A DNA stretch of 64,000 bases from a virus: IMG/VR virus record IMGVR_UViG_3300037247_000847, positions 31,948 through 95,947 of that record; one strand, 5' to 3'. The notes under the pieces are model-generated. The model made no database searches. It had not been told where the DNA came from and was given only the letters and a program-made list of their open reading frames with translations. Within the stretch, counting starts at the first letter, position 1, and the number at the start of each line of letters is the position of its first letter. A program made the position numbers and the translations under genes. Shown here one piece after another: positions 16,113 to 58,585 of the stretch.

Positions 16113-16981
16113 AAGCGGTCTTTGTAACGACATTTCCTAATGACGTAGCCAATGTGATTGCAGCTTGGGATTGCTGGAATGAGGTTAAATCCGAGCGGAT
16201 TATTTTTGACTTCCGTCAAGTTATCGACGACGCAGATATTTTGCGCCGTGCGGAGGCAGCTTCACCGGACGTAATTTTTTATGTTGGTGGTTGTGGTGGA
16301 CCAATGCACTTACCCACCATTGCGACGCTCCAAGCATTGAAGGAAATGGCCCCTTCTATTAATTTGATTTTTGACGGTATCGAGGATGCATGGTATGAAA
16401 TGATTGCGAAATACAAGCAGCATGAATGCTTCAATTTGCAGGTTACTATTGACGGGTGTCCCGACGCTCCTGTTGATTTGGTCACCACTGCTCCGGTTGA
16501 TACGAGGTTGTTTGCGGGGGAAGATCCACCCAAGGATATCCCCTGCGGGATTTCGGGAAACATTGGCCGTGGTGATAAGAGGTCGAAAATCATCAATCCG
16601 TTGATATGGGAAGGTCTAGTAGAAATGAGGAGGAGGGATGTGGTTGGGGATGGGTTCCCGGAGCACGTTGCCTTTATGCGAAGATGCCAAATGATCATTA
16701 ACACGTCTTTTACAGGTTCAGGCAACAAACATCATGTAAAGCAGCGTGTGTTCGAAACCGGGTTTGCTGGAGCTGCCTTACTTGAATGTGAAGCAGCCCC
16801 AACACATTTCTGGATACCACAGTCATATTTCTTTAGGTACAAAAATACTTTACACGCAAGTCAGATTATTAAGACACTCGACGCGAGGGAGATTGCGGAA
16901 AAGGGTCAAATGTTGCAACAATATGTTAGGGCTCATTATATGCCAGAGCAAGTATATGGTGCAATGTTGGATCGATTATGA
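16109..16981 (+). CDS. Tandem glycosyltransferase-like paralogue 2
   Basis: The 290-residue second paralogue shares DVIFYVGGCGGPMHLP, the cysteine-bearing ECFNLQVTIDG segment, TGSGNKHHVKQRVFETGFAGAALLE and the terminal YGAMLDRL with its neighbours. Matching blocks are in the same order as in copy 1, so the pair arose by duplication, but the proteins have diverged well beyond half their residues. The GT-B-like C-terminal lobe suggests nucleotide-sugar binding. Translationally coupled on both sides. Confidence 0.6.
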   Translation: MKAVFVTTFPNDVANVIAAWDCWNEVKSERIIFDFRQVIDDADILRRAEAASPDVIFYVGGCGGPMHLPTIATLQALKEMAPSINLIFDGIEDAWYEMIAKYKQHECFNLQVTIDGCPDAPVDLVTTAPVDTRLFAGEDPPKDIPCGISGNIGRGDKRSKIINPLIWEGLVEMRRRDVVGDGFPEHVAFMRRCQMIINTSFTGSGNKHHVKQRVFETGFAGAALLECEAAPTHFWIPQSYFFRYKNTLHASQIIKTLDAREIAEKGQMLQQYVRAHYMPEQVYGAMLDRL

Positions 16982-18006
16982 GGGCATTATTCGTTACCAG
17001 CTCGACGTCCGATGTAGATAGTCTCGTTCGTGCCTGGGATTGCTGGCAGCCTGACAAATCTATCCGCGTGATGTTTCCCCACATGGGGGAGCCTAGAGAC
17101 GAGAAAATTCTGGCTATAGCTAGGGAAATGCGACCGGATATTATTTTCTACATTGGAGCCAATGAAGGTTCAGGTATTCCTTCGATGGAAACGTTTTTGA
17201 GACTTCGGGAAATGGCTCCGTCGATCAACCTTTGTTGCGATGCTGGGGATACGCCGTGGTACGAACCTTTGAAGCGTTACAAAAAAGCGGGGTGTTTCAA
17301 TCTGCAAGTTGCGCTTGATGGCTATCTTAATGCTCCGGTCGATCTTGTGACCATAACCCCGGTCGATCCTGCACCGTACATTCAGCCTGTCGCGTGGAAA
17401 CGCTTCATCCGGTGTGGGTTTTCGGGAGGGGTATCTTCCAAGGAAAGGCTTGCTGTTTTCAAAGTAAGCTTTGCAAGCCGGATGCCACCAAAGATCGTTA
17501 AGAAGCGCCCTCGCAATGCGTTGCCTGCTTGGAAGCCACTGTATAAGAAACATCCCGACATGCCACCTCCAGTGCCAACCACACAGCGGGACAAGATCGT
17601 TTGGGGTCTTGAGAACATGAAAGACATTATCACTGTGCGGCGGCGAACATCCAAGGCCCCTTATTCCGATCACGTCGCATTTATGCAGTCGTGTCATATA
17701 ATCATAAATACGTCAACCAGTGGAACGGGAGACACACATCAAATTAAGGGGCGTGTTCTCGAAGCTGGATGGGCTAAATGCGCGCTACTTGAATCAGTAG
17801 GCTCGCCAATAGCCGAGTGGCTACCAGAAGAAAGTTATTTCATTTACCGTGATGCTGATCATGCGAAGGACCTGATCAAAAGTCTAACAGTTGAGCAAGT
17901 CACAAAATCAGCGCTCGTACTAAATGAATATGTGGAGAATCATTATCACCCTCGTCAGATTTACGGCGAGATTTTGGAGCGAGCTGGTGTGGATTATTCC
18001 GTCTAG
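16978..18006 (+). CDS. Tandem glycosyltransferase-like paralogue 3, with internal insertion
   Basis: The 342-residue third paralogue keeps the shared blocks (DIIFYIGANEGSGIPS, GCFNLQVALDG, SGTGDTHQIKGRVLEAGWAKCALLE). It carries an extra basic, proline-rich segment of about 50 residues around positions 150-205 (PPKIVKKRPRNALPAW...) that the other two lack. This may change acceptor choice or reflect an insertion. The gene overlaps the following transferase by 20 bases. Confidence 0.6.
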   Translation: MRALFVTSSTSDVDSLVRAWDCWQPDKSIRVMFPHMGEPRDEKILAIAREMRPDIIFYIGANEGSGIPSMETFLRLREMAPSINLCCDAGDTPWYEPLKRYKKAGCFNLQVALDGYLNAPVDLVTITPVDPAPYIQPVAWKRFIRCGFSGGVSSKERLAVFKVSFASRMPPKIVKKRPRNALPAWKPLYKKHPDMPPPVPTTQRDKIVWGLENMKDIITVRRRTSKAPYSDHVAFMQSCHIIINTSTSGTGDTHQIKGRVLEAGWAKCALLESVGSPIAEWLPEESYFIYRDADHAKDLIKSLTVEQVTKSALVLNEYVENHYHPRQIYGEILERAGVDYSV

Positions 18007-18571
18007 GGGGCGACCTCAAAATATTAATCGTTTGGCTGAAGCTTTTCGGGACACTGGAGTAACAACGCCCGTTCGGTTACGGCTCGATGATGATGATCCG
18101 TGCGGATATGTTTGTCCAGCTCACTGGGAAGTAGTTACTGGGCCGCGAGCACCTTTAAGCCAATACTACAACGAAGTGTTTGATCGCAGCCTCGATTGGT
18201 ACGGGCTCTTTGCCGACGATGTAGTACCAGAAACGCCGTACTGGGATATACTTCTAATCGAAGCTGCCGGTTCCGATGGTGTAGCTTATGGTAATGATGG
18301 GATTGGTACTAGGCCAACACACTTTGTGGTCGGTGGGCAGCTTGCCCGCGAGATTGGCTGGCTGGCGCTGCCTGGCTTATCACGTATCTACATCGACACG
18401 GTTTGGCACGATATCGCGACCAAGCGCAACGTGTTGCGGTTTCTTCCTGATGTTCGGATTCCGCATCTGCATTTTTCTAACCGGCTGGCGTTGTTCGACC
18501 GAACGTATCGCAAGTCTACTAAGGACCAGGACCGCGCTCTCTATCAGGCGTGGCGCAATCGAGAAGGATGA
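17987..18571 (+). CDS. GT-A glycosyltransferase-like protein
   Basis: GTG at 17987 is chosen because TGGAG lies about eight bases upstream and the protein then opens VWIIPSRGRPQNINRL, a usual start for small GT-A-type proteins. A DDDDP cluster (the nucleotide-sugar or metal-binding aspartates) follows near residue 34, then GLFADDVVPET and VGGQLAREIGWLALP. At 194 residues it is compact. It is the last gene of the cargo block and is coupled by ATGA to the next structural-region gene. Confidence 0.6.
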   Translation: MWIIPSRGRPQNINRLAEAFRDTGVTTPVRLRLDDDDPCGYVCPAHWEVVTGPRAPLSQYYNEVFDRSLDWYGLFADDVVPETPYWDILLIEAAGSDGVAYGNDGIGTRPTHFVVGGQLAREIGWLALPGLSRIYIDTVWHDIATKRNVLRFLPDVRIPHLHFSNRLALFDRTYRKSTKDQDRALYQAWRNREG

Positions 18572-44910: not shown

Positions 44911-45063
44911 TCACGTTCTATCCATCCAATAACACTTTGGACAACATTTTCCTCCTGGAAGATATACTACTAGATATTCGTAACATTTAGGACAAGTTAT
45001 TTGTGGGGACCTAAATAGCCACGTAGAAAATAACCAGTCCCAAAAATTATTCCAGATACTCAT
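44911..45063 (-). CDS. Small zinc-ribbon protein with amphipathic N-terminus, 50 residues
   Basis: ATG 45063 overlaps the DNA polymerase stop as ATGA; the frame ends with TGA at 44911. The product starts with a tryptophan/phenylalanine-rich helix (MSIWNNFWDWLFSTWLF) and then has TCPKCYEYLVVYLPGGKCCPKCYW. Two CPKC knuckles make a clear zinc ribbon. It may bind membrane or the polymerase; no family name is known. Confidence 0.6.
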   Translation of the reverse strand: MSIWNNFWDWLFSTWLFRSPQITCPKCYEYLVVYLPGGKCCPKCYWMDRT

Positions 45064-47807
45064 CAGAACCCACACTCCTTCCGGTTTAAAAGCCCAAGAT
45101 CATCTGAGTAAATAGTAGACACTTCCTCTTGATCAAACCAATTTGGACCCTTACCTATTTCGAGACATAGTGGTACTGTAATCCAAGGAAAGTGTTCGCA
45201 TTGTAGCATTTCATATGCTATGAATTCTAGGTCCCTATCAATAGTTTTCTTTGGTATCCAGAATCCTAATTCATCATGTACCATTAGACGTGCTTGGAAC
45301 TGCCACTCTTCTAGTTCTTGTGCAGCCTCTGATAGACGATCCATTGCGTGTAGGACAATTTCTACCTCCGCGTTTTGAATAGGTGTATTGATGATCTCAC
45401 CATGGTCTAATGGACCATGGCGCCTCCACCCGGTTGGTCCTTCTACATAACCATTATCATCGTAAAAGTTTCTCATGCGCTTCTGATAACTACTTAACCC
45501 GGGCATCTCTCTAAAAAATTGTCTAATGAGTGGTTTTAGATCTTCTACTGGAATATGTAGATATTCAGATACTGATTTTGCAGTAGCTCCAAAAATTAGG
45601 GGGAACGTCCACTGGTTCTTTACATCTGTGCGGAACTTTTTCAGTGCGTCTTTGTCTTTGAGAAACTTCTCCCCACCTATTCGACGTGGATATGCACGGG
45701 CTAGTTTCTTTGTCCACCTCATGTGAATGTCATTTCTATCCCAGAGATAGGTACAATACATTTTGTCATGTGATAGCATACCTGCAATCCGTGCTTGGAT
45801 TTGGCCGTAATCTATTGCCACGAACCAGCAATCGTCTTCAGTTACGTGACTTGGTAGGTTATAATCAAATCCACTTTTTATCCTTTCACGTATAGCACGG
45901 GTTGGTGATATGAACAAGCGGCGTAGATCTGAGTAACCTTCATCTCGTTTAGGCCAGAACTGTTCATTCGGGAAAGAACAGGATGTCCTCCGTGTTACAA
46001 GAAACTGAGTTTGAAGAGCTGCGTGTGTCATACCATCAGGCCAAATACACAAGCCAGTTGCTTTCTTTTTGGTTATTACTACCTTTGGAGCATGATCCTT
46101 CGGTAGTAGAGGATCAACATATTTTGACTTGTTTCCACGTACAGCGCGATACTCACGTATTTTCTTGGCGATCTTGAGTGGGATCTTCTCCAAAACTGCG
46201 TCTTCTGTTGAGTATTTTGCTTTTCCCTTTTCGTCTTCTCCCACCTTACATTCTTTACGACCTAGGACATTTTTTAACATCAACAAGACGTCTTGTGGGG
46301 ATGAGGGTTTGAATCTTCTCCCCATCCTCTTCTCAAATTTGGATGCTGCTGAACTATTCTGGAACCAAGTCTCAAGCTTAACTATTTTGGGACTATATTT
46401 TTCATCAAATCCAAGTAAGGCATCAAAGTCAATCAACATTCCGAAGTGAGATTTAAGTGCAACTGTAGGTACGTGCCGCACTTGTTCTCTATACACATCT
46501 AATAATTTTTTATATTCTATCACTTTCTGTTGTACAACAAATAAAGCATGTTCCCATTTAGCATCTAATGCATTATAAAGTAGAACTTTAGGTAGAGGTT
46601 CATTATCTAAGTTACTAAGATTAACTGGTACCACATCCTTTAGCCGGAAACCAAAGTTGGTTAATATTAGAGCATCGAGGTTGGTGGTACCACGTTGTCT
46701 ACCGAGTACATATGCTTGAGCCATTGTGTCGTGCCAAGTACAGCATCTAGCTAAATCTTTTCCAAAGAACTCGATAGTCCATTCTAATTCAAAGAATAGA
46801 TGGTGTGCAATTTTCTCAGTATCTGATCGGAGAAATGAAATCCAAGCTTGCCATACTTCCTCGAACTGGCTCTTAGTCCATTCAGCTTCTCTATGTTTTA
46901 TTGGAAATGCAATCGTATCCTTCTTAGTTCCTACAGCAATAGTGAGTATGCGTGCGTTTTGTCCATAAGGTCGAACCTGTTTTTCTACAATAGCAGGTTT
47001 CTCATCACTAGCTGTCTCGTAGTCAAAAGCAACTTTGGATAATTTAGCATATTGATCCAACTTCTTTTTTATTAGCTTGACATCTTTCCATCCTCTTTCT
47101 CCAGTAATGATTTTAATATTACTCTTGATTTCATCTTCACTGATAATAGTAGCTTTTGGAAGTGATTCTAATTCGTTGATTGCACGTTGTATATCCCGAT
47201 CAAATGTTCGCTCCTGTTCACTAGGAATTTCTCTCCGAGTTTTGGGATGACGTCTACGCATTCGGCTAAGGTATGATGGGTGATAAAATGGATAATACCA
47301 ACAGCAGTGATTTCCTACTTGTATTGGAATACGTAGGCCACGCCAAGAAGTAATCCTTTCCTCACCTATTGCCCACTTGAGTGGGATACCACCAAAACCA
47401 AAGATCACTTTTGGTTTGGTCTTTTCTATATCTGATATCAGACGTGGTCGGCAGCAGGTTATCTCAATAGATGTTGGAGTAACATTCTTATCTTTGTGAC
47501 AATTTATGGTATTATTCAAACGAGCAATTTCTAGTAGCTCTTCTGGTATATATTCTCTAAGTAAATGTCCTGACTTACCAATAAATTGTTCATTGAGCTT
47601 ATCTTCTTCTACTCCTGGTCCCTCCCCTAAAATGTATGCCAATGGTTTCTTGGAGCCAGTTGCATCCATCTTTGGATGACGTAGATCCTTAACGCGATCA
47701 AGAGGACATGCTTTGCAGCCCATTTTAAATAATGTATGCATCGAGAATTGTCGTGAGCTACCACGTTTCTTAGTACTTTCATCTTCATCGAAGAGCCAAC
47801 CCCCCAC
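45063..47807 (-). CDS. Family A DNA polymerase with N-terminal uracil-DNA-glycosylase-like domain
   Basis: GTG 47807 has AAGGA upstream. The 914-residue protein has three parts. The first is a UDG family 4-like domain with CKACPL near residue 30, ILGEGPGVEED, and ITCCRPRLI (cysteines as in Fe-S UDGs). The second is a DnaQ-like exonuclease (VAFDYETAS, AHHLFFELEW). The third is a PolA core with motif A FVAIDYGQIQARIAG near 666 and motif C VHDELGF near 843. Motif B reads FRTDVKNQWTFPLIFGA, one residue longer than in E. coli Pol I. Such UDG-polymerase fusions are known from hydroxymethyluracil phages such as SPO1. Confidence 0.9.
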   Translation of the reverse strand: MGGWLFDEDESTKKRGSSRQFSMHTLFKMGCKACPLDRVKDLRHPKMDATGSKKPLAYILGEGPGVEEDKLNEQFIGKSGHLLREYIPEELLEIARLNNTINCHKDKNVTPTSIEITCCRPRLISDIEKTKPKVIFGFGGIPLKWAIGEERITSWRGLRIPIQVGNHCCWYYPFYHPSYLSRMRRRHPKTRREIPSEQERTFDRDIQRAINELESLPKATIISEDEIKSNIKIITGERGWKDVKLIKKKLDQYAKLSKVAFDYETASDEKPAIVEKQVRPYGQNARILTIAVGTKKDTIAFPIKHREAEWTKSQFEEVWQAWISFLRSDTEKIAHHLFFELEWTIEFFGKDLARCCTWHDTMAQAYVLGRQRGTTNLDALILTNFGFRLKDVVPVNLSNLDNEPLPKVLLYNALDAKWEHALFVVQQKVIEYKKLLDVYREQVRHVPTVALKSHFGMLIDFDALLGFDEKYSPKIVKLETWFQNSSAASKFEKRMGRRFKPSSPQDVLLMLKNVLGRKECKVGEDEKGKAKYSTEDAVLEKIPLKIAKKIREYRAVRGNKSKYVDPLLPKDHAPKVVITKKKATGLCIWPDGMTHAALQTQFLVTRRTSCSFPNEQFWPKRDEGYSDLRRLFISPTRAIRERIKSGFDYNLPSHVTEDDCWFVAIDYGQIQARIAGMLSHDKMYCTYLWDRNDIHMRWTKKLARAYPRRIGGEKFLKDKDALKKFRTDVKNQWTFPLIFGATAKSVSEYLHIPVEDLKPLIRQFFREMPGLSSYQKRMRNFYDDNGYVEGPTGWRRHGPLDHGEIINTPIQNAEVEIVLHAMDRLSEAAQELEEWQFQARLMVHDELGFWIPKKTIDRDLEFIAYEMLQCEHFPWITVPLCLEIGKGPNWFDQEEVSTIYSDDLGLLNRKECGF

Positions 47808-49201: not shown

Positions 49202-49819
49202 CTACTCCTCTCCTTCTGGTCCAGGTATTGCTTCCGCCTGTGCATCTATCCTTGCTTCTGTTAGTGCATCATCATCAAAGTTATCATCCTCTGGCTTGCT
49301 TTTAGGTAAGCGTGGATCGTCAATTTGGTCAGGGTGATAGGTAGGATAGGGGGGGTCTGAATCCTCACCCTCATCAAAGCCGAATGGGTGTTTCATACCT
49401 GACGGTTCGGTTTCATCTGTTAGTGCTAAAGGAGGGAAACTCATATTCAATTCCTTGATTCTGGTAACATGACCAATTTCGATCATATGCTCTACCAAAA
49501 TTAGAAGGTATCCGACCAAATCCAGGCAGTCATCTAATATAGTTTCATTTCGACCATCTGCTTCGAATACATCGAAGATGTCGTACTTTGCTGGATGTCG
49601 TGTCTCGCAGGCCTGTTCGATACGATCCCATTTTCTAGCTATTACCATAAAGGCTCCAGCTCCCCCACGCTTTCGCCAAGAGCTTCCATACTGAATGTCT
49701 TTATCATTTACGAACTTTACCAGTTCTTCAGCTATGAGATTTAGGCGGTGGTATTGGCGGCCATATCGTTTCATATCTGCATTAATCATGACCAGCTTAG
49801 ATGCGGGCTTGTCAGACAT
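49202..49819 (-). CDS. DUF1599/nucleotide-modification-associated domain-like protein
   Basis: This 205-residue protein has a core KDIQYGSSWRKRGGAGAFMVIARKWDRIEQ followed by DIFDVFEADGRNETILDDCLDLVGYLLILVEHM. The layout is helical, MazG-like, and resembles the nucleotide modification associated domain 1 (DUF1599) of phages. The last 75 residues are acidic and disordered. It lies directly upstream of the clamp gene and downstream of the dUMP hydroxymethylase, which fits a role in modified-nucleotide supply. Activity is unproven. Confidence 0.6.
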   Translation of the reverse strand: MSDKPASKLVMINADMKRYGRQYHRLNLIAEELVKFVNDKDIQYGSSWRKRGGAGAFMVIARKWDRIEQACETRHPAKYDIFDVFEADGRNETILDDCLDLVGYLLILVEHMIEIGHVTRIKELNMSFPPLALTDETEPSGMKHPFGFDEGEDSDPPYPTYHPDQIDDPRLPKSKPEDDNFDDDALTEARIDAQAEAIPGPEGEE

Positions 49820-49877
49820 TTCTCTTCCTTTCTTTGTTCAAGGTTCAACCGTTTGCATCCTTTAGTTAGTAATACAG

Positions 49878-50954
49878 CTAGTGTTTAATTGAACGCCTCT
49901 TCATCCAATGTCGAGCTGCGTGCAACCAGTCGATATGTTGCGTGTTTGGTAACAAATAATCTAGTTCCCAATCAATGCATTCAAATTGATTGGGATCGTC
50001 TTTACGCCTTCGAAATATCATATACGCTTTTACCATAGGGATCGCGACTCTTGAAAAGATAGGGTTACGCCATGGATACATATAATACATATCTATTTTT
50101 GGTTCGTCTTCTTTGGTAGCCCCCAACCGTGCGTCGTGCCATTGAAAAAAGTGATGTAATTCTTGATCGAATTTAACTGGATCGTAGATTAGCTGGGTTG
50201 GTTTGACTACTCCAGTGGAATATTCATCGTTATGATATGTAATAGGTGGCCGACCAATTGAGGGGGGTCTTAATGATTTAAGTTTATCAAAAATTTCAGT
50301 GTAGGCATGAAAGTTGTTGCTAATTTGATATAGTGATCCAACATCTATACCAAGATTGGCAGCCAAATACTCTTGTAGGATAGAAAATTGTACCGCATTG
50401 GCCCCGGCTGCACCCCAAATTACATCATTGGACCTGCAGAATACGGTCATATCTAAAAGCTGATTATTGATCCAAGGTGTAACGATGAGATTACACGGGA
50501 TATCTTTGACATTCTCATGCTCGTGTAGATCATCTTCACAGTCCCATATCTGAATAACAGCGCGACGAGATTGTGGATGTTTTTTAAGAAGTATTTCAAC
50601 TTTGATCAACTGATCAATTGGCCAATGTAGATGCCATCTATAACCATAAGCCCCGTGAAAGGTTGTTCCATCATCAGAGAAGTTTGACATACGACGAACG
50701 TAGTGAGTCAAAGTTGCAACATCTCGTCTGCCAGCTAGCATCCATAGTGCTTCTATAAGATGGAAAAAGGGATTGGCATCCCTAATAGGTGAGAAGAGTA
50801 CTCTTTCCATAGGCTTTCTATAGACAGTAGTGACAGGAGTTGGTGCTACAATAACCTCACCTGCTCTAGATGAGTTACGTTCTCCTTCTTTCTCAAGATG
50901 TTGAAGCATTTCAGGAAGTGCTTCATTTACGTTCCTAACATCTAGTACGTGCAT
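49878..50954 (-). CDS. Thymidylate-synthase-fold dUMP hydroxymethylase candidate
   Basis: ATG 50954 is chosen because AGGAG lies seven bases upstream. The 358-residue protein keeps the thymidylate synthase core: NPFFHLIEALWMLAGR, RRAVIQIWDCEDD, the catalytic cysteine in DIPCNL (about 154), CRSNDVIWGAAGANAVQF and NNFHAYTEIF. Asparagine at about 186 corresponds to the residue that selects dUMP; dCMP hydroxymethylases have aspartate there. With a hydroxymethyl-dU kinase nearby, 5-hydroxymethyl-dUMP formation is more likely than dTMP synthesis. Confidence 0.8.
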   Translation of the reverse strand: MHVLDVRNVNEALPEMLQHLEKEGERNSSRAGEVIVAPTPVTTVYRKPMERVLFSPIRDANPFFHLIEALWMLAGRRDVATLTHYVRRMSNFSDDGTTFHGAYGYRWHLHWPIDQLIKVEILLKKHPQSRRAVIQIWDCEDDLHEHENVKDIPCNLIVTPWINNQLLDMTVFCRSNDVIWGAAGANAVQFSILQEYLAANLGIDVGSLYQISNNFHAYTEIFDKLKSLRPPSIGRPPITYHNDEYSTGVVKPTQLIYDPVKFDQELHHFFQWHDARLGATKEDEPKIDMYYMYPWRNPIFSRVAIPMVKAYMIFRRRKDDPNQFECIDWELDYLLPNTQHIDWLHAARHWMKRRSIKH

Positions 50955-50955
50955 G

Positions 50956-51222
50956 TTATATCTCCTTTTCCCTCTGTACTGTACGCGCTCGGATTTCACT
51001 TGCTACACGAGCACGAAATTCCGAACAACCATCTAGCGCCGCTGCTTCGACCAATTCTGCACACGCCTCACGCTCACGCTCCCGAATGATTTCATTCTCG
51101 CGTTTCCAGGTTTTCTCGGGAATGATGACCACCCGGTCAGAACCGTTTCCTTCGAGCGTTTCTAGAGCGTGGGGCTGATCAGCCGCTCCGATGTAGATGA
51201 CTAGGGGACTATCTTCTGTCAT
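50956..51222 (-). CDS. Small hypothetical protein
   Basis: The 88-residue product opens SPLVIYIGAADQPHALETLEGNG, a short alpha/beta start, followed by a long arginine- and glutamate-rich helix ending in RTVQREKEI. GGAGGGT precedes the ATG and its stop abuts the hydroxymethylase start. No family is assigned. The charged helix suggests a protein-binding role. Confidence 0.6.
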   Translation of the reverse strand: MTEDSPLVIYIGAADQPHALETLEGNGSDRVVIIPEKTWKRENEIIREREREACAELVEAAALDGCSEFRARVASEIRARTVQREKEI

Positions 51223-51246
51223 GGCTCATACCCTCCTCGTAAGTGG

Positions 51247-52071
51247 TTACACATCAAACCAAGGGAGTTGACTATGTCGACCCCTTTCTCCTCCCCATGG
51301 TACATCGTCTACATGTCTTATAGCATTGTAATTTATTAATTCAATGTCAAAGGATTCTATAGATGATAGATGTTGATTTTCAATCCAAAACCTACGTATG
51401 TTTACTTGAGACACGTTTGTAAAGGTAATGTAAAATGGTACTCCTGTAAATGATAACATTCGTAGATTACGTTCAAACCTCTGCCAGTTGGGATGCTTAC
51501 GTGTGTTATCCATCCACTCCTTGCGATCATAACCTTTGATATTGACTGCTATAAGCACGTGGTCTCTTACACATTTTAGATACTGTAGTGTGTCCGATGA
51601 ATAATTAACCTCAGTAAGCATCATATCTGAATGGAATACCCATTTTCTATGTAGTAACTTTTTCCGCCGTGCAAGTTCTCCAATTAACTCTGGCCAGCGA
51701 ACCATACTTAGAGCAGGGGCACCACCCATAAGATGAAATACTTGTAGGTTAGACTCAATAAACGCGTCAACCATTTGTGCAGTAGATACCTGCTCATATT
51801 TACCCCACACACCTTCTCGCGTGACGTAACAATATGGACAGTCTAAGTTACAACCAAACAACTGAACGACAAACTGATGTTGTGCTTTCCATCCGAGACG
51901 TTTCATGCATATTTCTGAGAATTGGTCGTATCCTCCTCCTCCGCGTTTAGTGTCACAAGATCTGTATAGTCCCCCATTCAGAATATCTTCCTCACGAACA
52001 TCGAGACGTTGACCCCTACTTAGTGGAACCACTTTCCAATTCTTTTTGGGATCACGAGTTCCCATTACCAT
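51247..52071 (-). CDS. Radical SAM enzyme in the thymine-modification cluster
   Basis: The 274-residue protein has VVQLFGCNLDCPYCYVTREG with CxxxCxxC cysteines at about 74, 78 and 81, a VFHLMGGAPAL segment (the GGxP motif), and later barrel strands WVFHSDMML and VLIAVNIKGYD. It has no B12 domain. A class III RNR activase role is unlikely because the RNR here is class II. Radical SAM isomerases are known in published thymidine-hypermodification clusters, which is the best contextual guess. It overlaps the sulfotransferase gene by 20 bases. Confidence 0.75.
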   Translation of the reverse strand: MVMGTRDPKKNWKVVPLSRGQRLDVREEDILNGGLYRSCDTKRGGGGYDQFSEICMKRLGWKAQHQFVVQLFGCNLDCPYCYVTREGVWGKYEQVSTAQMVDAFIESNLQVFHLMGGAPALSMVRWPELIGELARRKKLLHRKWVFHSDMMLTEVNYSSDTLQYLKCVRDHVLIAVNIKGYDRKEWMDNTRKHPNWQRFERNLRMLSFTGVPFYITFTNVSQVNIRRFWIENQHLSSIESFDIELINYNAIRHVDDVPWGGERGRHSQLPWFDV

Positions 52072-53263
52072 TTCTCAGACCTTTCTGTTGACTAGATATT
52101 ACCAAATCAGCAAATTCATCGAAACCAACTATGTCTTTGTCAGATAGGTTGCTCACTACATAGTCTCTAGTTCTCGTCATTTGAGTATTGGTAAGATCCA
52201 ATAGCCAACGTGTGCGCTCCTCTGACATATCTATTTGTAAGTCTTGATACAACTGTAGCATACTCTCAAAGACATTAGAAGTTAGGTCACTACAGTTTAA
52301 TAATACAGTGTCCCGAGTCTCATTACAAATTGTATTATAGAAAGCAACGAATTCTGTACATTCCCTCCTTCGGAACTTCACGTTCGCTTTGTGCCATTCA
52401 ATAGATAATGATTTATCAATTCCGGTCTTAGTCAACGTGCTTTCTCGTGAAAGTGCTACATAGGAGGATAACATATCTTTGTGGTCACGTACCAAAAACA
52501 GGAGCTTTGCATACGGAAAGGACTTGAACAATGCACGGTAAAATGACACATCTTCGTTTTCCTTTGTGACCCAAATTCTGTCCTTGCCTCGGTAATATGC
52601 TACTTTTCTTATTACACGCATAAAGACTTTTAGTAGACGTTCCTGGTTTTTACTATTGAGAGTGTTGAAGTGAGTTAACTTATCCAAAAGTGAGGTAAAC
52701 GGAAATCTCCGGAATACGAAATAATGATGATAGAATTTCTCTTCTAGAAATATACCATGTTCTTCATGATTACCATAAAGGTGAGGATGCATCTGACTGG
52801 CTAGAAGACCAGCAGTATCCTTATTAGACCAATAATTCCAACCGTTGATCCAATCTCTAAGTCTTAAACAATCTAATAAGTACCATATACATATATAAGG
52901 CCAACGCCATTCTAGATAGGTAACTGCAAAGAACACATCCTTATCATCGGCCAACAACCGATGTAGGAAGGTAGAACCACTTCTGGGTTGGCTAATAATG
53001 AAGACAGGATCCTTGAGACTTACGCAGTTCAGTTGTCTACTAAATATCACTTCATCTAATAACCACAAGGTACAATGTAGTGGGCTCAATACTAGGTCAC
53101 GCAGCAAGTATGTGAGTAGTCGCAGCTTGACACGTTTAGGAAGCTGTTTGTCTCTACACGTTGCTCGGAAGACACACCAATACGAACCCCAGTGTGATAG
53201 GGGATTGATATAGCCTAGAAGAACAGCTACTGTGCAGATTAATATAATAATAGAGAGAAGCAC
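52052..53263 (-). CDS. Membrane-anchored PAPS-dependent sulfotransferase-like protein
   Basis: GTG 53263 has GAGGGA upstream. The 403-residue product begins with a hydrophobic segment (LLSIIILICTVAVLLGYI), a probable membrane anchor. The PAPS 5'-phosphosulfate loop FIISQPRSGSTFLHRLL is at about 88-104 and the 3'-phosphate motif FLVRDHKDMLSSYVALSR near 257-273. These are the two hallmarks of the sulfotransferase superfamily. Sulfotransferases are rare in phages. The target could be a surface glycan, a lipid or a modified base, and the anchor favours an envelope target. Confidence 0.75.
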   Translation of the reverse strand: MLLSIIILICTVAVLLGYINPLSHWGSYWCVFRATCRDKQLPKRVKLRLLTYLLRDLVLSPLHCTLWLLDEVIFSRQLNCVSLKDPVFIISQPRSGSTFLHRLLADDKDVFFAVTYLEWRWPYICIWYLLDCLRLRDWINGWNYWSNKDTAGLLASQMHPHLYGNHEEHGIFLEEKFYHHYFVFRRFPFTSLLDKLTHFNTLNSKNQERLLKVFMRVIRKVAYYRGKDRIWVTKENEDVSFYRALFKSFPYAKLLFLVRDHKDMLSSYVALSRESTLTKTGIDKSLSIEWHKANVKFRRRECTEFVAFYNTICNETRDTVLLNCSDLTSNVFESMLQLYQDLQIDMSEERTRWLLDLTNTQMTRTRDYVVSNLSDKDIVGFDEFADLVISSQQKGLRNGNGNS

Positions 53264-53275
53264 TGCTCATTCCCT

Positions 53276-53440
53276 CTATTTCGTACGCCAGAACTCTATG
53301 GCCATCTGGATGTCATGAGTCAGTTGGTTGCAAAGATTGGTGTGAGATTCATCGTCTGCCTCCATGACGATTTCGCATCCACGTTCAGCCCGCCGTTCAT
53401 GGACGTGGGCGATGGCTCTGGCATTTTCTTTCGGTGTCAT
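53276..53440 (-). CDS. Small hypothetical protein, 54 residues
   Basis: ATG 53440 has a strong AAGGAGG site and the frame runs to TAG at 53276. The product, MTPKENARAIAHVHERRAERG followed by CEIVMEADDESHTNLCNQLTHDIQ, is helical and ends IEFWRTK. It lies co-directionally between two genes and fills a gap that would otherwise exceed 180 bases. The function is unknown. Confidence 0.6.
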   Translation of the reverse strand: MTPKENARAIAHVHERRAERGCEIVMEADDESHTNLCNQLTHDIQMAIEFWRTK

Positions 53441-53450
53441 CACGCCCTCC

Positions 53451-53681
53451 TTAGTTTTCGTCGTCCTCGGTCGTCATTTCAACAGGCTGAACCTGGGCAG
53501 CATCCTCCTCCCCACAGAAGAATTCGCCAGCGGAGTTGAATGCCATCACCCGATTGTTGTCGTGATGATACTCGCTCTTGAAGCAGAGCAATTCCGGGTT
53601 CTCCTGTGTCACGAACGGTCCTGGTGGTGCTTCCTTTAGTGAGCAGGGCCAGCCTATCGGTGTGATGATTTTCTGGATCAT
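53451..53681 (-). CDS. Small conserved-looking phage protein
   Basis: The 76-residue product MIQKIITPIGWPCSLKEAPPG...LLCFKSEYHHDNNRVMAFNSAGEFFCG ends with an acidic tail. It has GGAGG six bases before its ATG and is coupled by ATGA to the kinase gene upstream. Proteins with this opening and the AFNSAGEFFCG segment appear in many phages without known function. The cysteines are too few for a clear zinc site. Confidence 0.65.
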   Translation of the reverse strand: MIQKIITPIGWPCSLKEAPPGPFVTQENPELLCFKSEYHHDNNRVMAFNSAGEFFCGEEDAAQVQPVEMTTEDDEN

Positions 53682-54298
53682 GTTAGCCTCCTTTCTAACA
53701 ACTGATATATTGCACGCATGGGTTTACGATAGTCAATGATAACTGTTTCTTCACCCTCACTCTCGAACTTCTTACGTGTAGCTTCGGTTGCAATGAACTT
53801 TTTCTCTACATGCTTAGTTCCACTACTACCCCTTATTCTACCAGAAGCAGCAGTCTTATTTTTGTTACGAGCTTCGATCCGTTCGTAGCAGACTTCTAGT
53901 GGGGTATCCATATAGCACCAAGTAATACCTCCGAGCTCTTGTGATAATTCATAAAACCTTCTGAATAGACCACTGACGATAAAACCCTCAAAGAATACAT
54001 GACCTTTACCTGCAAATTTTCTTACTATATCACATACATCATCCAATCCACCAAAGTGCTTCATGACATAATCTGCACCCCCAGACATAGTTACATAGGA
54101 GCCGACGAAATAGACTGGGTCTCCCTTATACATACCTTTATACCCTATTACCCGCCCTATGAGACGACCTGGCTCCGGGTCTGCGTATAGAGGAGTAGCG
54201 TTGCTCTTCTTCATCAGCTCCCTAATAATCCAAGACTTGCCTGATCCGTTGCAGCCACGAATATTCACGATGCGATATTTATTGCGTTTTCTAGACAC
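53678..54298 (-). CDS. P-loop kinase, 5-hydroxymethyl-dU DNA kinase-like
   Basis: GTG 54298 is preceded by GGAGG. The 206-residue protein has Walker A IRGCNGSGKSWIIREL (15-22), YADPEPGRLIGRVIGYKGMYKGDPVYFVGSY and a Walker B-like GHVFFEGFIVSGLF, then TPLEVCYERIEARN (lid region). The arrangement matches the P-loop domain of phage hydroxymethyl-dU DNA kinases, which phosphorylate the base in polymerised DNA. In several phages this domain is fused to a helical domain; here that domain is separate at 56549. Confidence 0.7.
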   Translation of the reverse strand: MSRKRNKYRIVNIRGCNGSGKSWIIRELMKKSNATPLYADPEPGRLIGRVIGYKGMYKGDPVYFVGSYVTMSGGADYVMKHFGGLDDVCDIVRKFAGKGHVFFEGFIVSGLFRRFYELSQELGGITWCYMDTPLEVCYERIEARNKNKTAASGRIRGSSGTKHVEKKFIATEATRKKFESEGEETVIIDYRKPMRAIYQLLERRLT

Positions 54299-54373
54299 CG
54301 TTTTTTCCTCCGTCTTCGGTGCATATGATGCGTCTAGTTTAATGGTTTGTAGGGCTTCTCCCTGATGTCTTTT

Positions 54374-54724
54374 TCAATTAGACGTTGGCGCTAGACGTTG
54401 GCGCAACTCCTCGTGGCGGATCTTAATGGTACGCATCATCTCGGCTTCACCATCTGGGCCAAGGTTATTCAACAACTTGTCGTAGTCTACATCAATACGG
54501 CTGCCAAACTTGCGGCTGATACCGGCTGCCTCCACAGTCGAGACAAAGGCACGGAGCGTATCCTGCTGTTCAATTAAACCCTTATGGCTTGCCGCCGCCG
54601 CACCAAGCGCGTTAATCACCCGCTGCAACGTCAGATTAATAGCAATTTGCTGTGCCAATAAGTTTTCGAGCACCTGTGGCAAGCTAAATTGCACCCGGAA
54701 AAAACACCTCAGTCCCTTCAACAT
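54374..54724 (-). CDS. Small protein sharing the IDxDxxK...LGP domain
   Basis: ATG 54724 has GGAGG eight bases upstream, so the longer frame to 54826 is not used. The 116-residue product opens with a hydrophobic/basic stretch (MLKGLRCFFRVQFSLPQVLENLL), then a helix, then ISRKFGSRIDVDYDKLLNNLGPDGEAEMM. This last part matches the C-terminal motif of the protein at 1822-2106. It may be a paralogue used early in infection. The overlap with the upstream DUF4031-like gene is seven bases. Confidence 0.6.
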   Translation of the reverse strand: MLKGLRCFFRVQFSLPQVLENLLAQQIAINLTLQRVINALGAAAASHKGLIEQQDTLRAFVSTVEAAGISRKFGSRIDVDYDKLLNNLGPDGEAEMMRTIKIRHEELRQRLAPTSN

Positions 54725-54987
54725 TGTTTCATCCTCCTTCTTCGGTTCAGCATAATGCGTCCGAGTTCCTTGACACTCACTTCTACAGCTCCTGCCTTCA
54801 CGGCTAGCGCGCGCTTGGATAGACATATGTCAAAATGGCTGCGAGGTGTGCCTGGATATTGATGCCACTTGCGTTGTACACCAATCTTGTCTACCATAGT
54901 TAACAGCTCTTCGTCGCTATCGGCTATCATGTGACACATGATTAGGCGTCCGAAAGGAGCACGCATGTTGTCTACTCGAACGGTCAT
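54718..54987 (-). CDS. DUF4031-like protein
   Basis: The 89-residue product follows the DUF4031 pattern closely: MTVRVDNMRAPFGRLIMCHMIADSDEELLTMVDKIGV, WHQYPGTPRSHFDICLSKRALAVKAGAVEVSVKELGR. This family is common in phages and actinobacteria, and its activity is unknown. It is coupled by ATGA to the pyrophosphorylase-like gene upstream, so it may act in the same modification pathway. Confidence 0.8.
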   Translation of the reverse strand: MTVRVDNMRAPFGRLIMCHMIADSDEELLTMVDKIGVQRKWHQYPGTPRSHFDICLSKRALAVKAGAVEVSVKELGRIMLNRRRRMKQC

Positions 54988-55913
54988 AACGTTTTTACCA
55001 CCTTGACGTTACCAAAATCGTTTACCAACCTCCTTCTATCTCTATAGACACCTTTAAGTTGTCCCCGAGGTTCTGACCATCCCCCAAATTCACCTAATAG
55101 TCTTATATCAAAAATCACCCCTCTTGCTTTCCATAATATTTTAGATAGGTTGTTGTCATGTAGCTTTAGTTGTTTAAGGTCTCTGTCAATATCATGACCG
55201 TGGTAGTATTTTCCGTTAGTCAATGACTGCCAATCACATAACATACTTTCTAGTTGGTCTAACCCGTTGACTGGCGCACCGAAGTCTATAGTTACTCGTA
55301 ATAGATCTCGATGTACTTTATTATTGTTAGCACATATGTCCCAACCTAGTCCTGTTAGTGTGTTAAGACCAGCTATCGGCCCTGCTGTCGCGCCTGGCTT
55401 TGTTCCAATATCAGGAGCGGTGATGGGGTATGAATGAACGAATTTCATCATGTCACAGAACTTGTAGCTAGACCAAGGTCCATGATAGGGTAATTCCGAA
55501 ACAGCTTCTCTAATTTTAGCCCAACTCTTTTCACGGTTATTACTGACTAGGTTGTCTACCCATGAAACTAAATCCCCATCGGTGAGTGATACCAATGTAT
55601 TTATCTGATTAAGTGCCTGCTCGTTGCCTCGAAAGCAACGACGTTGTTTGAAATAGGGAAGGTCATTACTCCAGTCCTTCTTTCGGATGATATCTGGTTT
55701 TGGATATCGTTTCCAAGCTTGAACAGCACTACCAAGATGGTAGTACAATAAATAAATACATGTGAACCAAAGTGCAGTGTTACGGTCTAATTTGAGTTTC
55801 TTATACATGTGTCTTAATATAGGGAATTGAGGGTCCAAATCTCCGGAGAGGATCATTGCGCGGCCGAACCGGGCAAAGTCTCTTAGTTCTTTAGATTTAT
55901 CTTTGTACCACAT
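54984..55913 (-). CDS. aGPT-pyrophosphorylase-like protein (putative clade 2)
   Basis: The 309-residue, largely helical protein opens MWYKDKSKELRDFARFGRAMILSGDLDPQFPILRHM and continues WFTCIYLLYYHLGSAVQAW, a pattern seen in the alpha-glutamyl/putrescinyl-thymine pyrophosphorylase group. Those proteins displace pyrophosphate from activated hydroxymethyluracil in DNA with an amine nucleophile. Later segments include GPWSSYKFCDMMKFVH and a conserved-looking GLNTLTGLGWD. It starts eight bases after element E. The family call rests on visual resemblance. Confidence 0.55.
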   Translation of the reverse strand: MWYKDKSKELRDFARFGRAMILSGDLDPQFPILRHMYKKLKLDRNTALWFTCIYLLYYHLGSAVQAWKRYPKPDIIRKKDWSNDLPYFKQRRCFRGNEQALNQINTLVSLTDGDLVSWVDNLVSNNREKSWAKIREAVSELPYHGPWSSYKFCDMMKFVHSYPITAPDIGTKPGATAGPIAGLNTLTGLGWDICANNNKVHRDLLRVTIDFGAPVNGLDQLESMLCDWQSLTNGKYYHGHDIDRDLKQLKLHDNNLSKILWKARGVIFDIRLLGEFGGWSEPRGQLKGVYRDRRRLVNDFGNVKVVKTL

Positions 55914-55920
55914 AATAGAC

Positions 55921-56025
55921 CTATCTTAGGACCGCCTCCAAGGCCTGCAGGGGAGGATTTGACCCTTTAAGGGTAAAAACCCCGTTAATTTAGTCTCCGT
56001 TACCTGCGGGCCTTGGAGGGGTCGG
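55921..56025 (-). ncRNA. Structured 3'-UTR element, copy E
   Basis: Fifth copy, minus strand, with the most perfect pairing: an 11-bp outer arm, 5-bp inner arm, and GACC/GGTC extension with a single bulged C. Its 5' arm overlaps the end of the gene at 55990, coding PPRPAGNGD and the stop, so the RNA structure and protein C-terminus share bases. The next gene begins eight bases past its 3' end. Confidence 0.75.
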
Positions 56026-56538
56026 TAAAACGGTACATATTTCGTCAAATAGCTCCGAAGGGATATTTGGGTCAGTAGTAACACCAATTCCCCCTGAGTA
56101 ATCGTCAGTAAATAGGCAACATTGTTTTACCTTCTCTAATACTATTCGCAGGCGCCACTTCTCGTCATCGGCGGCTTTGGCGCGGTCTTTCCATGTGATA
56201 CGAGCCTTCGCACCGTCTATACCTGCGGTCGCTTCACCCATCCAATATTCTGAGGTTTTCTCCAACTCCGCCCCCCGCTCCCGTGTCTCCTTTATAGTTT
56301 TAACTAATCCATTACACTCCTCCGCTGTAACCAACTCATGTAGTTCATGGAGTTTTTCACTTCCTTGTGTATATTCTGGAATTTCTTCCTCGTAGAAACC
56401 CCAAATCAATTGACCTTGTAGCTCCTCGATCTTGTTGGCTACTTCGTTTAAGAACATCGTACCCTGTTCAATTGTCATAAATACAATGCTGGAGCCACGC
56501 AGTCGTTCAATGATGTCAGTCGTTGTGAGGTCTACCAT
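55990..56538 (-). CDS. Hypothetical protein whose 3' end overlaps element E
   Basis: ATG 56538 is used because AGGAG lies eight bases upstream. The 182-residue acidic, helical product (MVDLTTTDIIERLRGSSIVF, then EEIPEYTQGSEKLHELHELVT) is unrecognised. The last nine residues, PPRPAGNGD, are encoded by the structured element, so the original protein end was probably replaced when the element arrived. It lies between the two pyrophosphorylase-like genes. Confidence 0.6.
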   Translation of the reverse strand: MVDLTTTDIIERLRGSSIVFMTIEQGTMFLNEVANKIEELQGQLIWGFYEEEIPEYTQGSEKLHELHELVTAEECNGLVKTIKETRERGAELEKTSEYWMGEATAGIDGAKARITWKDRAKAADDEKWRLRIVLEKVKQCCLFTDDYSGGIGVTTDPNIPSELFDEICTVLPTPPRPAGNGD

Positions 56539-56548
56539 GATATATCTC

Positions 56549-57469
56549 CTACCACTCATTTGATTTTTTCGGGACGAAACGTTCTAACACACCTTGTCCA
56601 AGTTTGATCCTTTCGATCTTGTCAAACTCACAAAGCCAATGTTCGACCTCTCGCATTTCCCAAGGTGGTGTATGTAGACCCCACCTTGGCTCTTGAGATT
56701 TTGCTAAGAGACCTTGCATGGCTTCTAATGCATTCTTTTTCGGGAAGGAACAACCTTCAATCTGCCTCGTCTTCGGTTGATACCCCCAAAGTCGGGTCAA
56801 TCCTCGAAGAGCCCCCGGCCCGGCATTTGCCCAAGTCATAATATCAGGGGCGTTACGTAGGTATACCGTATGACGAAGATCTGAGACGACTTCATAAGCC
56901 AAGAAGTCTCCAAGACCTCGTTGACTACGAAGCCATTTCCACATGTCTTCTAGACTATTGGTATTGATAATCCAAGATGGATGGCGTAGTTCGCGGTAGA
57001 GAGGGGTGAGTACAGAATTTACGAGATAGATAGCACGTTCGCTCCCTTTTGGGCATGAACCGAGTAGATATGCACCTGTATAGATTTTCTTACCTCCATC
57101 CTTACGACGATGCAAGACCCCCAATACCTTTTCTGGGTTCCAACGTTTGGGAAAGCCTATCTCCTCTAAGGTGGGAGGCCAATTGATTAACCTAGCTAGT
57201 GCCATTGCAAAAGGTAGGTTGGGATGATCTGCATAAGGCTCACGCCAATTCTCCCGTAACCAAATAGTCACCTTATCATGTTCTCTAAATAAATTACAGA
57301 ATTTGTACTTCTGGAAAATAGGGTCATCCGTCCATGGTGGGATTTGGCTAAATTCCCTATCCCTACGTAAGCGAATATTGTAACGCTCCTTAGCCGTCTT
57401 GAAATATCGACGTAGCTGAGTGTATTTAGGTCCACACGCTACCTGCTCGGATGTTAGTGTAGTTGTCAT
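56549..57469 (-). CDS. 5-hmdU kinase helical-domain / aGPT-pyrophosphorylase-like protein
   Basis: The 306-residue protein carries KYKFCNLFREHDKVTIWLREN, closely resembling the FxNxxRExDRxTxWL signature of the hydroxymethyl-dU DNA kinase helical domain and its pyrophosphorylase relatives. Then come LARLINWPPTLEEIG, GKKIYTGAYLLGSC and GLGDFLAYEVVSDL, a helix-hairpin-helix-like glycosylase region. In other phages this domain is fused to the P-loop kinase; here it stands alone. It probably binds modified base in DNA and acts with the kinase at 53678. Confidence 0.7.
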   Translation of the reverse strand: MTTTLTSEQVACGPKYTQLRRYFKTAKERYNIRLRRDREFSQIPPWTDDPIFQKYKFCNLFREHDKVTIWLRENWREPYADHPNLPFAMALARLINWPPTLEEIGFPKRWNPEKVLGVLHRRKDGGKKIYTGAYLLGSCPKGSERAIYLVNSVLTPLYRELRHPSWIINTNSLEDMWKWLRSQRGLGDFLAYEVVSDLRHTVYLRNAPDIMTWANAGPGALRGLTRLWGYQPKTRQIEGCSFPKKNALEAMQGLLAKSQEPRWGLHTPPWEMREVEHWLCEFDKIERIKLGQGVLERFVPKKSNEW

Positions 57470-57589: not shown

Positions 57590-58585
57590 TTACGAAAGTT
57601 TGATCCAACCCTTCTCCTCGGCGACGCTGAGGAACTTGGACGTACCCCCTGCCGCAGTGTACTTAGCAACCGTCTTAGATGCTTTCATGATCTTGAACAT
57701 GTCGGCACGCTTGGAACCTTCCCTCAGCTTTGGTTTACGGTCGAGAACCTTGATCTTCTTGTTTGCATTCTCGCTGGGTCGACCACGACCTTTACCATTA
57801 GACGATTCCTTTTTCGTCTTGGATTTTCCTTTGCTCTCTTTCTTGGTCTTAGTTGATTTATTTTCCTTCTTGTCCTTCTTGGTCTTGTCCTTCTTGGTGG
57901 TTTTATTTTTGTCCTCAGTCTTCTTGGTCTTCTTGTTCTTCTTTTTCTCTTCGGTCTTCTTGTCCTTTTTACTCATAGCCTTAGTCTCCTTTTCATCTTC
58001 GTCTTCATCTTCATCTTCGTCTTCATCTTCATCTTCATCTTCGTCTTCGTCTTCATCATCTTCGTCATCATCTTCATCTTCGTCTTCGTCATCATCTTCG
58101 TCTTCATCGTCATCTTCGTCTTCGTCATCTTCGTCTTTCTTGCTCTTTTTCTTACTAGAACTCTTACGACGCTTAGGCTTTTTCTCTTCATCTTCATCTT
58201 CATCTTCGTCTTCGTCTTCGTCATCTTCGTCTTCGTCTTCATCTTCGTCATCTTCGTCTTCGTCTTCATCTTCGTCTTCGTCTTCGTCATCTTCGTCTTT
58301 CTTACTCTTTTTCTTAGAGCTCTTACGACGACGTGTCTTTTTCTCTTCCTCCTCTTCATCTTCGTCTTCGTCTTCGTTCTCAAAGTTGGGGATCTCTTTT
58401 TTCTCCTCCACAGCGTCGATGGCAGCATCGACCCATTTTTGGGTTTCGTCCGATAGCGTGTAGAACTTCTCGTCGTCGGTCTTGTCTATCATAAGTAGAA
58501 TACGTTTGAGAAAAGACTGTTCTGTTTCTTTCTTTTTCTGACCCTTTATCCCAGTCAGTTTCAGCAGTTCTTGTTCAATAGACAT
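57590..58585 (-). CDS. Protein with central acidic/basic low-complexity region and conserved ends
   Basis: The 331-residue protein has an N-terminal domain (EQELLKLTGIKGQKKKETEQSFLKRIL...FYTLSDETQKWVDAAIDA) found in other phage proteins of unknown function. Next is a region of about 140 residues of D/E runs and KSSKKKSKK blocks, then a lysine-rich linker. The compact C-terminus, KRADMFKIMKASKTVAKYTAAGGTSKFLSVAEEKGWI, looks like a small DNA-binding or histone-like unit. The middle is nearly the same as the SSB tail at 41143. AAGGAG precedes the ATG. Confidence 0.7.
   Translation of the reverse strand: MSIEQELLKLTGIKGQKKKETEQSFLKRILLMIDKTDDEKFYTLSDETQKWVDAAIDAVEEKKEIPNFENEDEDEDEEEEEKKTRRRKSSKKKSKKDEDDEDEDEDEDEDEDDEDEDEDEDDEDEDEDEDEDEEKKPKRRKSSSKKKSKKDEDDEDEDDDEDEDDDEDEDEDDDEDDEDEDEDEDEDEDEDEDEDEDEKETKAMSKKDKKTEEKKKNKKTKKTEDKNKTTKKDKTKKDKKENKSTKTKKESKGKSKTKKESSNGKGRGRPSENANKKIKVLDRKPKLREGSKRADMFKIMKASKTVAKYTAAGGTSKFLSVAEEKGWIKLS
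57985..58380 (-). repeat. Low-complexity D/E- and K/R-rich coding repeat, second locus
   Basis: Three acidic runs are separated by two basic KSSKKKSKK blocks. Block order and bases match 41275-41560 in the SSB gene, but this locus is longer by one unit. It is coding in the minus frame, and the long serine frame on the plus strand is an artefact. Confidence 0.85.

Follow-up and report, generated by a model that had tools for sequence, protein, structure and literature searches.

The thymine-hypermodification cluster and its proteins

The analysed window, a stretch of 64,000 nucleotides of DNA from a virus of bacteria, carries a thymine-hypermodification cluster on its minus strand at positions 49202-57469, which is real by the Pfam and PHROG matches of its genes. 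The following reading frames, all on the minus strand (-), were assigned:

56549-57469 (-): HEL, PF18723 (aGPT-PPlase1; "5-hmdU DNA kinase, helical domain"), encoded by its own gene, 306 aa; Pfam 1.9e-46
55990-56559 (-): reading frame without assigned function, 189 aa, without match in Pfam or PHROG; overlapping the end of HEL
54984-55913 (-): ADDT, amino acid:DNA transferase, PF18724 (aGPT-PPlase2), 309 aa; Pfam 1.6e-11
54718-54987 (-): DUF4031 protein, 89 aa; PF13223 1.4e-22, phrog_4887 8.8e-30
54374-54826 (-): reading frame without assigned function, 150 aa; no Pfam or PHROG family match
53678-54298 (-): stand-alone P-loop 5-hmdU DNA kinase, PF18748, 206 aa; Pfam 2.5e-6
53451-53681 (-): reading frame without assigned function, 76 aa, between kinase and sulfotransferase
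52052-53263 (-): sulfotransferase, PF13469, 403 aa; Pfam 8.4e-15
51247-52071 (-): radical SAM enzyme, PF04055, 274 aa; Pfam 1.1e-8, CxxxCxxC
50956-51222 (-): reading frame without assigned function, 88 aa, from the ORF list
49878-50999 (-): thymidylate-synthase (TS) family protein, probably dUMP hydroxymethylase, 373 aa; PF00303 7.6e-19
49202-49819 (-): conserved hypermodification-neighbourhood protein, 205 aa; no Pfam match

Most assignments of an initial annotation made from the sequence were borne out. The stand-alone P-loop hydroxymethyl-dU kinase-like protein scored just above the Pfam cut-off (PF18748, 27.6 versus 27.0 bits), matched the PaMx11 kinase in tblastn (7e-18) and possesses the P-loop GCNGSGKS; the radical SAM enzyme is supported by its Pfam match and a CxxxCxxC motif at residue 74, and the DUF4031-like protein by PF13223. 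The two proteins described as aGPT-pyrophosphorylase/helical-domain-like are both present but represent two different Pfam families, HEL (PF18723; 41-46% identical to the M6, Sonora and PaMx11 proteins) and ADDT (PF18724; 44.9 bits versus a cut-off of 26.2, with tblastn E-values as low as 6e-33 against aGPT-PPlase2 proteins of actinophages). For the dUMP hydroxymethylase candidate, membership of the TS family was confirmed (PF00303; phrog_5131, 2e-106; 47% identity to the M6 enzyme); the protein is probably the hydroxymethylase, an assignment that sequence tools do not separate from thymidylate synthase. The product of 49202-49819 had been called DUF1599-like, a label that had to be dropped: no Pfam, PHROG or NCBIfam match of that kind was obtained, and the DUF1599 (NMAD1) Pfam model matched none of 21 family members (the window protein and 20 homologues). 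The family is nonetheless conserved, with homologues in 59 loci (the window itself counted), and occurs in both kinds of HEL locus distinguished below. No relatives of the radical SAM enzyme were found in phages, IMG/VR, genome contigs or plasmids.

HEL and its proposed alternative partners

As the initial annotation had noted, the kinase and the helical protein are encoded apart, by two genes about 2.3 kb from each other and not as one polypeptide, as is apparently the case in Bacillus phage SP10. The arrangement is, contrary to that reading, the usual one: two distinct genes encode kinase and HEL in M6, ViI (38.3 kb and 88 kb, respectively, approximately 50 kb between them), PaMx11, Sonora and LysYB1, with the same core, each gene separate, in M6, PaMx11 and Sonora, and a kinase domain was present in 0 of 153 HEL reading frames from related loci. 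A novelty of the split is thus ruled out. The premise that the two domains are fused in several known phages held for SP10 and for none of the other HEL reading frames examined; the SP10 "5-hmdU DNA kinase" (F8WQ30, 637 aa), annotated as a single kinase protein and recovered among the structure neighbours of the HEL model, contains the HEL fold and looks like a kinase-HEL fusion, the exception.

The genes accompanying HEL and the hydroxymethylase were counted in 80 non-redundant loci. About half of the loci lacked a kinase, and most of these contained a glycosyltransferase instead: kinase without glycosyltransferase in 44, glycosyltransferase without kinase in 28, both in 1 and neither in 7 (Fisher p=6e-14 for the exclusion). 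At least 8 switches between kinase and glycosyltransferase fell on supported branches of the tree, and about 7.3 of 9 independent supported pairs changed in the expected direction. ADDT followed the kinase (38 of 44 kinase loci versus 0 of 35 others), and genes for FAD, PALP and M6-type radical SAM proteins were confined to kinase loci. HEL itself, in contrast, did not differ between the groups: the same 30 positions were at least 93% conserved in both, none being group-specific, and the hydroxymethylase likewise revealed no position specific to kinase or glycosyltransferase loci. HEL-glycosyltransferase fusions were looked for and none was found. The exclusion marks the kinase and the glycosyltransferase as alternative pathways and does not itself show contact between HEL and DNA; HEL is not kinase-specific and appears to serve viruses that apparently attach sugars as well.

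The same exchange is seen in the nearest relative, L087, in which one glycosyltransferase, a GT-B-like enzyme, occupies the slot of the window's kinase-ADDT-sulfotransferase-radical-SAM cassette between conserved flanks (53-71% identical, except the hydroxymethylase with 52% and the 49202-49819 gene with 35%). The pair represents a natural exchange between the two routes; with the DNA polymerase as bait for sister phages, nothing beyond the L087 contig and a single distant locus was retrieved.

The AF2 model of HEL (pLDDT 92, pTM 0.90) suggests a fold weakly resembling that of HhH DNA glycosylases: the first 33 PDB matches were OGG1/AlkA-type enzymes, all at weak significance (E 0.085 or worse; best probability 0.91, with TM 0.38/0.53), and the HEL sequence profile had no match among PDB sequences. 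Its viral structure neighbours include ADDT and the SP10 kinase apparently fused to HEL. Asp209 is invariant in HEL; going by OGG1 numbering, this residue may be the counterpart of the glycosylase Asp.

Since HEL is common to kinase and glycosyltransferase loci, conserves the same 30 residues in both and bears a weak likeness to HhH glycosylases, it is best read as a shared 5hmdU-DNA recognition subunit and not as a kinase domain, with the kinase as partner in the amino-acid route and the glycosyltransferase in the sugar route. That HEL is strictly a kinase subunit, loci without a recognised kinase using an unrelated, undetected one, seems improbable: the SP10 fusion shows a close tie between it and the kinase for one phage at least, it lies directly downstream of the kinase in many loci and its Pfam family bears the kinase name, but 32 of 34 kinase-less records lacked a kinase match over their whole length, glycosyltransferases appear where kinase, ADDT and tailoring genes vanish, and the conservation of HEL is identical in both groups. 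To a similarly low degree we credit an action before or beside the modification, for instance on 5-hmdU nucleotides or in the removal of unmodified bases as a glycosylase, by which HEL would be needed by both routes and be the partner of neither transferase; its co-occurrence with the hydroxymethylase in both kinds of locus, the glycosylase-like fold and the invariant Asp209 agree with such a role; against it, the SP10 fusion and the many loci in which HEL adjoins the kinase suggest a reaction in common. The preferred reading, to which we assign a probability of roughly 0.7, is that of an operon for post-replicative thymidine hypermodification of the M6/ViI kind in which HEL is the shared 5hmdU-DNA recognition subunit, partnered by a kinase or a glycosyltransferase. 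If HEL is such a module, the name of its family, "5-hmdU DNA kinase, helical domain", is misleading, and the HEL partner in a genome predicts whether amino-acid-derived groups or sugars are placed on thymines.

A candidate sulfotransferase within the cassette

The earlier description of the cluster had left out the protein encoded at 52052-53263, a candidate PAPS-dependent sulfotransferase according to its family (PF13469, 56 bits versus a cut-off of 27) and motifs: PRSGSTF (residue 93) and VRDHKDMLSSY (residue 258) correspond to the 5'-phosphosulfate loop and the 3'-phosphate motif, respectively. A single-sequence structure model was uninformative (pLDDT 34). The gene lies between those of the kinase and the radical SAM enzyme, its end overlapping the start of the latter by 20 nt, and shares strand, codon use and GC content with the phage core genes; as codon use and GC content match the core, an assembly artefact is unlikely. 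No relatives were found in phages or, by pattern search, in IMG/VR and genome contigs, and none of the 117 other HEL-bearing records contained a sulfotransferase. Two plasmid matches were obtained, among them a full-length homologue (30%) on a cyanobacterial plasmid; the N-terminal hydrophobic segment of the window protein is kept in the plasmid homologue. The better plasmid match adjoins an apparent toxin-biosynthesis cluster, and its neighbours suggest small-molecule tailoring.

We see about an even chance that the enzyme is an unrelated, membrane-anchored passenger that merely shares the transcript and sulfates a glycan, lipid or small molecule of the host or virion surface. The hydrophobic segment shared with a plasmid protein from such a neighbourhood and its absence from the other HEL-bearing records would fit, and the sugar-biosynthesis/glycosyltransferase island of the same phage (8.8-18.6 kb) could supply the glycan; that island, however, is approximately 34 kb away, and the gene sits inside the very cassette that sets the window phage apart from L087, with the overlap, strand and codon use described. 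Unlikely, in our estimate, is a function in the pathway, the enzyme capping the amino-acid side chain or forming a 5hmdU sulfate ester that would serve in place of phosphate as leaving group. The location between kinase and radical SAM enzyme, the intact PAPS motifs and the generally combinatorial nature of hypermodification clusters, whose tailoring genes vary, point in this direction; against it stand the lack of a second example, the membrane anchor, odd for a DNA-modifying enzyme, and the kinase already present in the cluster. Furthermore, no PAPS-making gene above cut-off was found on the contig (PF01583 remained below it), so that the enzyme would need PAPS from the host. We also consider it unlikely that a sulfonated, amino-acid-derived thymine is formed in this phage by transfer of host PAPS sulfate onto the kinase/ADDT adduct or onto 5hmdU; if true, its DNA would contain a base that is sulfated and negatively charged, the product of a tailoring class not present in the clusters examined here. 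The protein is a candidate, open to direct test, for DNA-base tailoring of a new class.

Predicted pathway and comparison with known systems

The analysis establishes the genes, families and synteny and the exclusion of kinase and glycosyltransferase beside HEL, whereas all chemical steps in the window phage are inferred: the hydroxymethylase would form 5-hmdUMP, which would enter DNA as 5-hmdU; HEL, a helical protein recognising the base, would act with the stand-alone kinase to place a phosphate on the hydroxymethyl group at selected sites; ADDT would put an amino acid in place of the phosphate; and the radical SAM enzyme, possibly also the sulfotransferase, would tailor the adduct. The bulky modified thymine predicted initially is well supported by this gene set of the M6/ViI type. 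The core gene set and the separate kinase and HEL are known from other phages; the sulfotransferase in the set was unexpected.

The M6/YuA-type cluster (gp051-gp058) resembles that of the window in combining ADDT, separate kinase and HEL, a radical SAM enzyme and a hydroxymethylase/TS. It differs by encoding a PLP (PALP) enzyme and a radical SAM protein that is longer and of another type, both missing in the window, which instead encodes the sulfotransferase and the DUF4031 protein; in gene order, HEL comes first in the window, whereas kinase and HEL are adjacent in M6. The radical SAM proteins are unrelated, without BLAST similarity beyond the cysteine motif, and models of PALP, FAD and M6-type radical SAM proteins had no match in the window. 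Of the known classes of tailoring enzymes (PLP enzyme, M6-type radical SAM, FAD enzyme, acetyltransferase), the window thus offers only an unrelated radical SAM protein, which renders the same product as in M6 less likely and leaves the assignment to the same kind of system unaffected. The M6 and ViI products are 5-NedU and 5-NeOmdU, respectively (background on the chemistry of both in PMC6449724). In ViI, HEL (Vi01_130c, 407 aa) and kinase are separate as in the window; its genes are, however, scattered across tens of kb, and a sulfotransferase was not found. PaMx11-type clusters (ADDT, FAD oxidoreductase, GNAT acetyltransferase, kinase, HEL and TS) share the core and the separate kinase and HEL, but their tailoring set comprises the FAD and acetyltransferase enzymes in place of radical SAM enzyme and sulfotransferase, and SP10 shares the HEL fold, apparently fused to the kinase. 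In pelagiphages, the portion of PMC9599517 drawn on here describes TS and aG/PT-PPlase1 near the DNA polymerase, thus HEL and TS as in the window, and reports no kinase; the clusters that, according to the same portion, include a putative glucosyltransferase resemble the glycosyltransferase-type HEL loci of the present set.

Genome context and layout of the predicted thymidine-hypermodification cluster

The IMG/VR contig (95,947 bp, of which the window spans bases 31948-95947) is the genome of a tailed phage, with genes for terminase, head-tail connector and nozzle-like protein as well as for ribonucleotide reductase, a DnaN-like clamp, a DnaX-like clamp loader and RecA. The cluster lies on the minus strand, flanked by a SNF2 helicase/primase block and a clamp/polymerase block, and is transcribed in the order HEL (5-hmdU DNA kinase helical domain, PF18723), 189-aa ORF, ADDT (amino acid:DNA transferase, PF18724), DUF4031, 150-aa ORF, 5-hmdU DNA kinase (PF18748), 76-aa ORF, sulfotransferase, radical SAM enzyme, 88-aa ORF, thymidylate-synthase-family enzyme (probably a dUMP hydroxymethylase) and a conserved 205-aa protein. 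Window positions are:

45063-47807, family A DNA polymerase
57469-56549, minus strand, HEL
52052-53263, minus strand, sulfotransferase (PF13469)

All families named in the initial annotation were recovered except DUF1599, which found no confirmation; the sulfotransferase was absent from its gene list. The proposed kinase holds (Pfam score barely over the cut-off; tblastn 7e-18 to the kinase of Pseudomonas phage PaMx11; P-loop intact). Both proteins described as aGPT-pyrophosphorylase/helical exist, but belong to distinct families and steps, HEL and ADDT. Immediately upstream of HEL, a highly acidic Asp/Glu-Lys repeat protein (57590-58585, minus strand) is 55% identical to its counterpart in the syntenic contig L087.

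Kinase and HEL are indeed encoded apart, but this arrangement, flagged earlier as an oddity, is not unusual: separate genes occur in phages M6 (gp054/gp055), Sonora and PaMx11 and in a Lysinibacillus phage, and in Salmonella phage ViI HEL stands alone (Vi01_130c) with the kinase ~50 kb distant. The kinase-HEL fusion claimed for other phages appears to exist in Bacillus phage SP10, where the HEL model finds a match in the 637-aa protein named "5-hmdU DNA kinase"; among HEL ORFs from IMG/VR and phage records, none of 153 contained the kinase. The label "terminase small subunit" on 5-hmdU DNA kinases of several Pseudomonas phages (AVV52_gp49, NC_028770; PPM6_gp054, NC_007809), borne also by phrog_800, is a propagated misannotation. 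Five loci (L137, L139, L061, L066, L130) each carry two tandem hmdU-kinase-like genes, which may serve different target sites or yield a pyrophosphate product.

A nucleotide-sugar island (8830-18571, plus strand), with head-tail connector and nozzle-like genes on either side, encodes an E1/transketolase-like pair, DegT aminotransferase, GDP-mannose dehydratase-like enzyme, cytidylyltransferase, GHMP kinase, a B12-binding radical SAM protein and three glycosyltransferases; its DegT and dehydratase genes show a GC of 0.57-0.59 (core ~0.42) and foreign codon use. Two B12-binding-domain radical SAM proteins are encoded on the plus strand (6496-7980, 13435-15252).

Kinase or glycosyltransferase as proposed partner of HEL

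Among 97 HEL loci flanked on each side by 5 kb or more, the kinase was present at 48 and absent at 49; it was found nowhere on the whole record in 32 of 34 kinase-less records, and the two exceptions (L145, L152) were moved to the kinase-positive count. In the majority of kinase-less loci, a TAGT glycosyltransferase (PF20691) or GT-B-like enzymes (Glycos_transf_1) stood in its stead. After removal of near-duplicates, 44 loci had the kinase only, 28 a glycosyltransferase only, 1 both and 7 neither (Fisher 6e-14), based on our own profiles over a span of a few kb, with the whole-record check applied to the kinase only and several contigs being fragments. Since sampling was built on conserved HEL motifs, distant HEL relatives are under-represented. 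The HEL tree required at least 8 state changes on well-supported branches, and across 9 independent supported pairs a mean of ~7.3 lay in the expected direction. ADDT, FAD, PALP and M6-type radical SAM genes were found only alongside the kinase. In four loci (L140, L142, L151, L153) with neither kinase nor recognised glycosyltransferase, an FkbM-type methyltransferase (PF05050 in L140) adjoins HEL and is perhaps a further kind of partner.

The swap is seen in L087, a 27-kb contig and the closest relative (paired with the window on the HEL tree, support 99), with identical flanking gene order and identities of 70% (polymerase), 71% (clamp loader), 65% (SNF2) and 65% (HEL). Where the window carries ADDT, DUF4031, kinase, sulfotransferase and radical SAM genes between HEL and hydroxymethylase, L087 has a single 463-aa GT-B-like enzyme; its Glycos_transf_1 match is weak, and a 445-aa L020 protein that clusters with it has matches to both Glycos_transf_1 and Glyco_transf_4. 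A Pelagiphage survey describes HEL and thymidylate synthase together, with a glucosyltransferase added in some phages (PMC9599517). TAGT action at the DNA level is plausible, since TAGT was assigned the second of the glucosylation steps that modified cytosine undergoes in T6 (PMC13390438).

Conservation reaches 93% or more at the same thirty HEL positions in the kinase group and in the glycosyltransferase group alike; neither HEL nor the hydroxymethylase has a position that tells the two groups apart. For the HEL structure model (pLDDT 92), the top 33 PDB hits are DNA glycosylases of the OGG1/AlkA type, all of them weak, and the model's viral structure matches include ADDT proteins. The comparative data suggest that HEL would recognise or flip 5hmdU in DNA, serving whichever transferase is present.

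The sulfotransferase and relation to known systems

The sulfotransferase (PF13469, 56 bits) has intact PAPS motifs, a hydrophobic segment at its N-terminal end, and GC and codon use resembling the phage core. A role in the modification pathway is doubtful, and the chance that the gene is a passenger is about even. In the 117 other records that carry HEL, no sulfotransferase scored above the cut-off, tblastn gave no match among 50,697 phage records, and no APS kinase above the cut-off was found on the contig. The sole full-length match (30% identity) is a cyanobacterial plasmid protein adjoining apparent small-molecule biosynthesis genes.

The M6/ViI route proceeds through 5hmdU and 5hmdU DNA kinase to transferases (PMC6449724). 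Of the 44 kinase loci, 13 have a tailoring set of ADDT alone, 13 have ADDT with FAD, 12 combine ADDT with PALP and radical SAM, and at 6 no such gene was detected; the window's sulfotransferase, combined with a radical SAM enzyme unrelated to the M6 type, was seen nowhere else. Judged by its gene content, the cluster belongs to the M6/ViI thymidine-hypermodification systems and would work like them, but differs from both in its tailoring genes.
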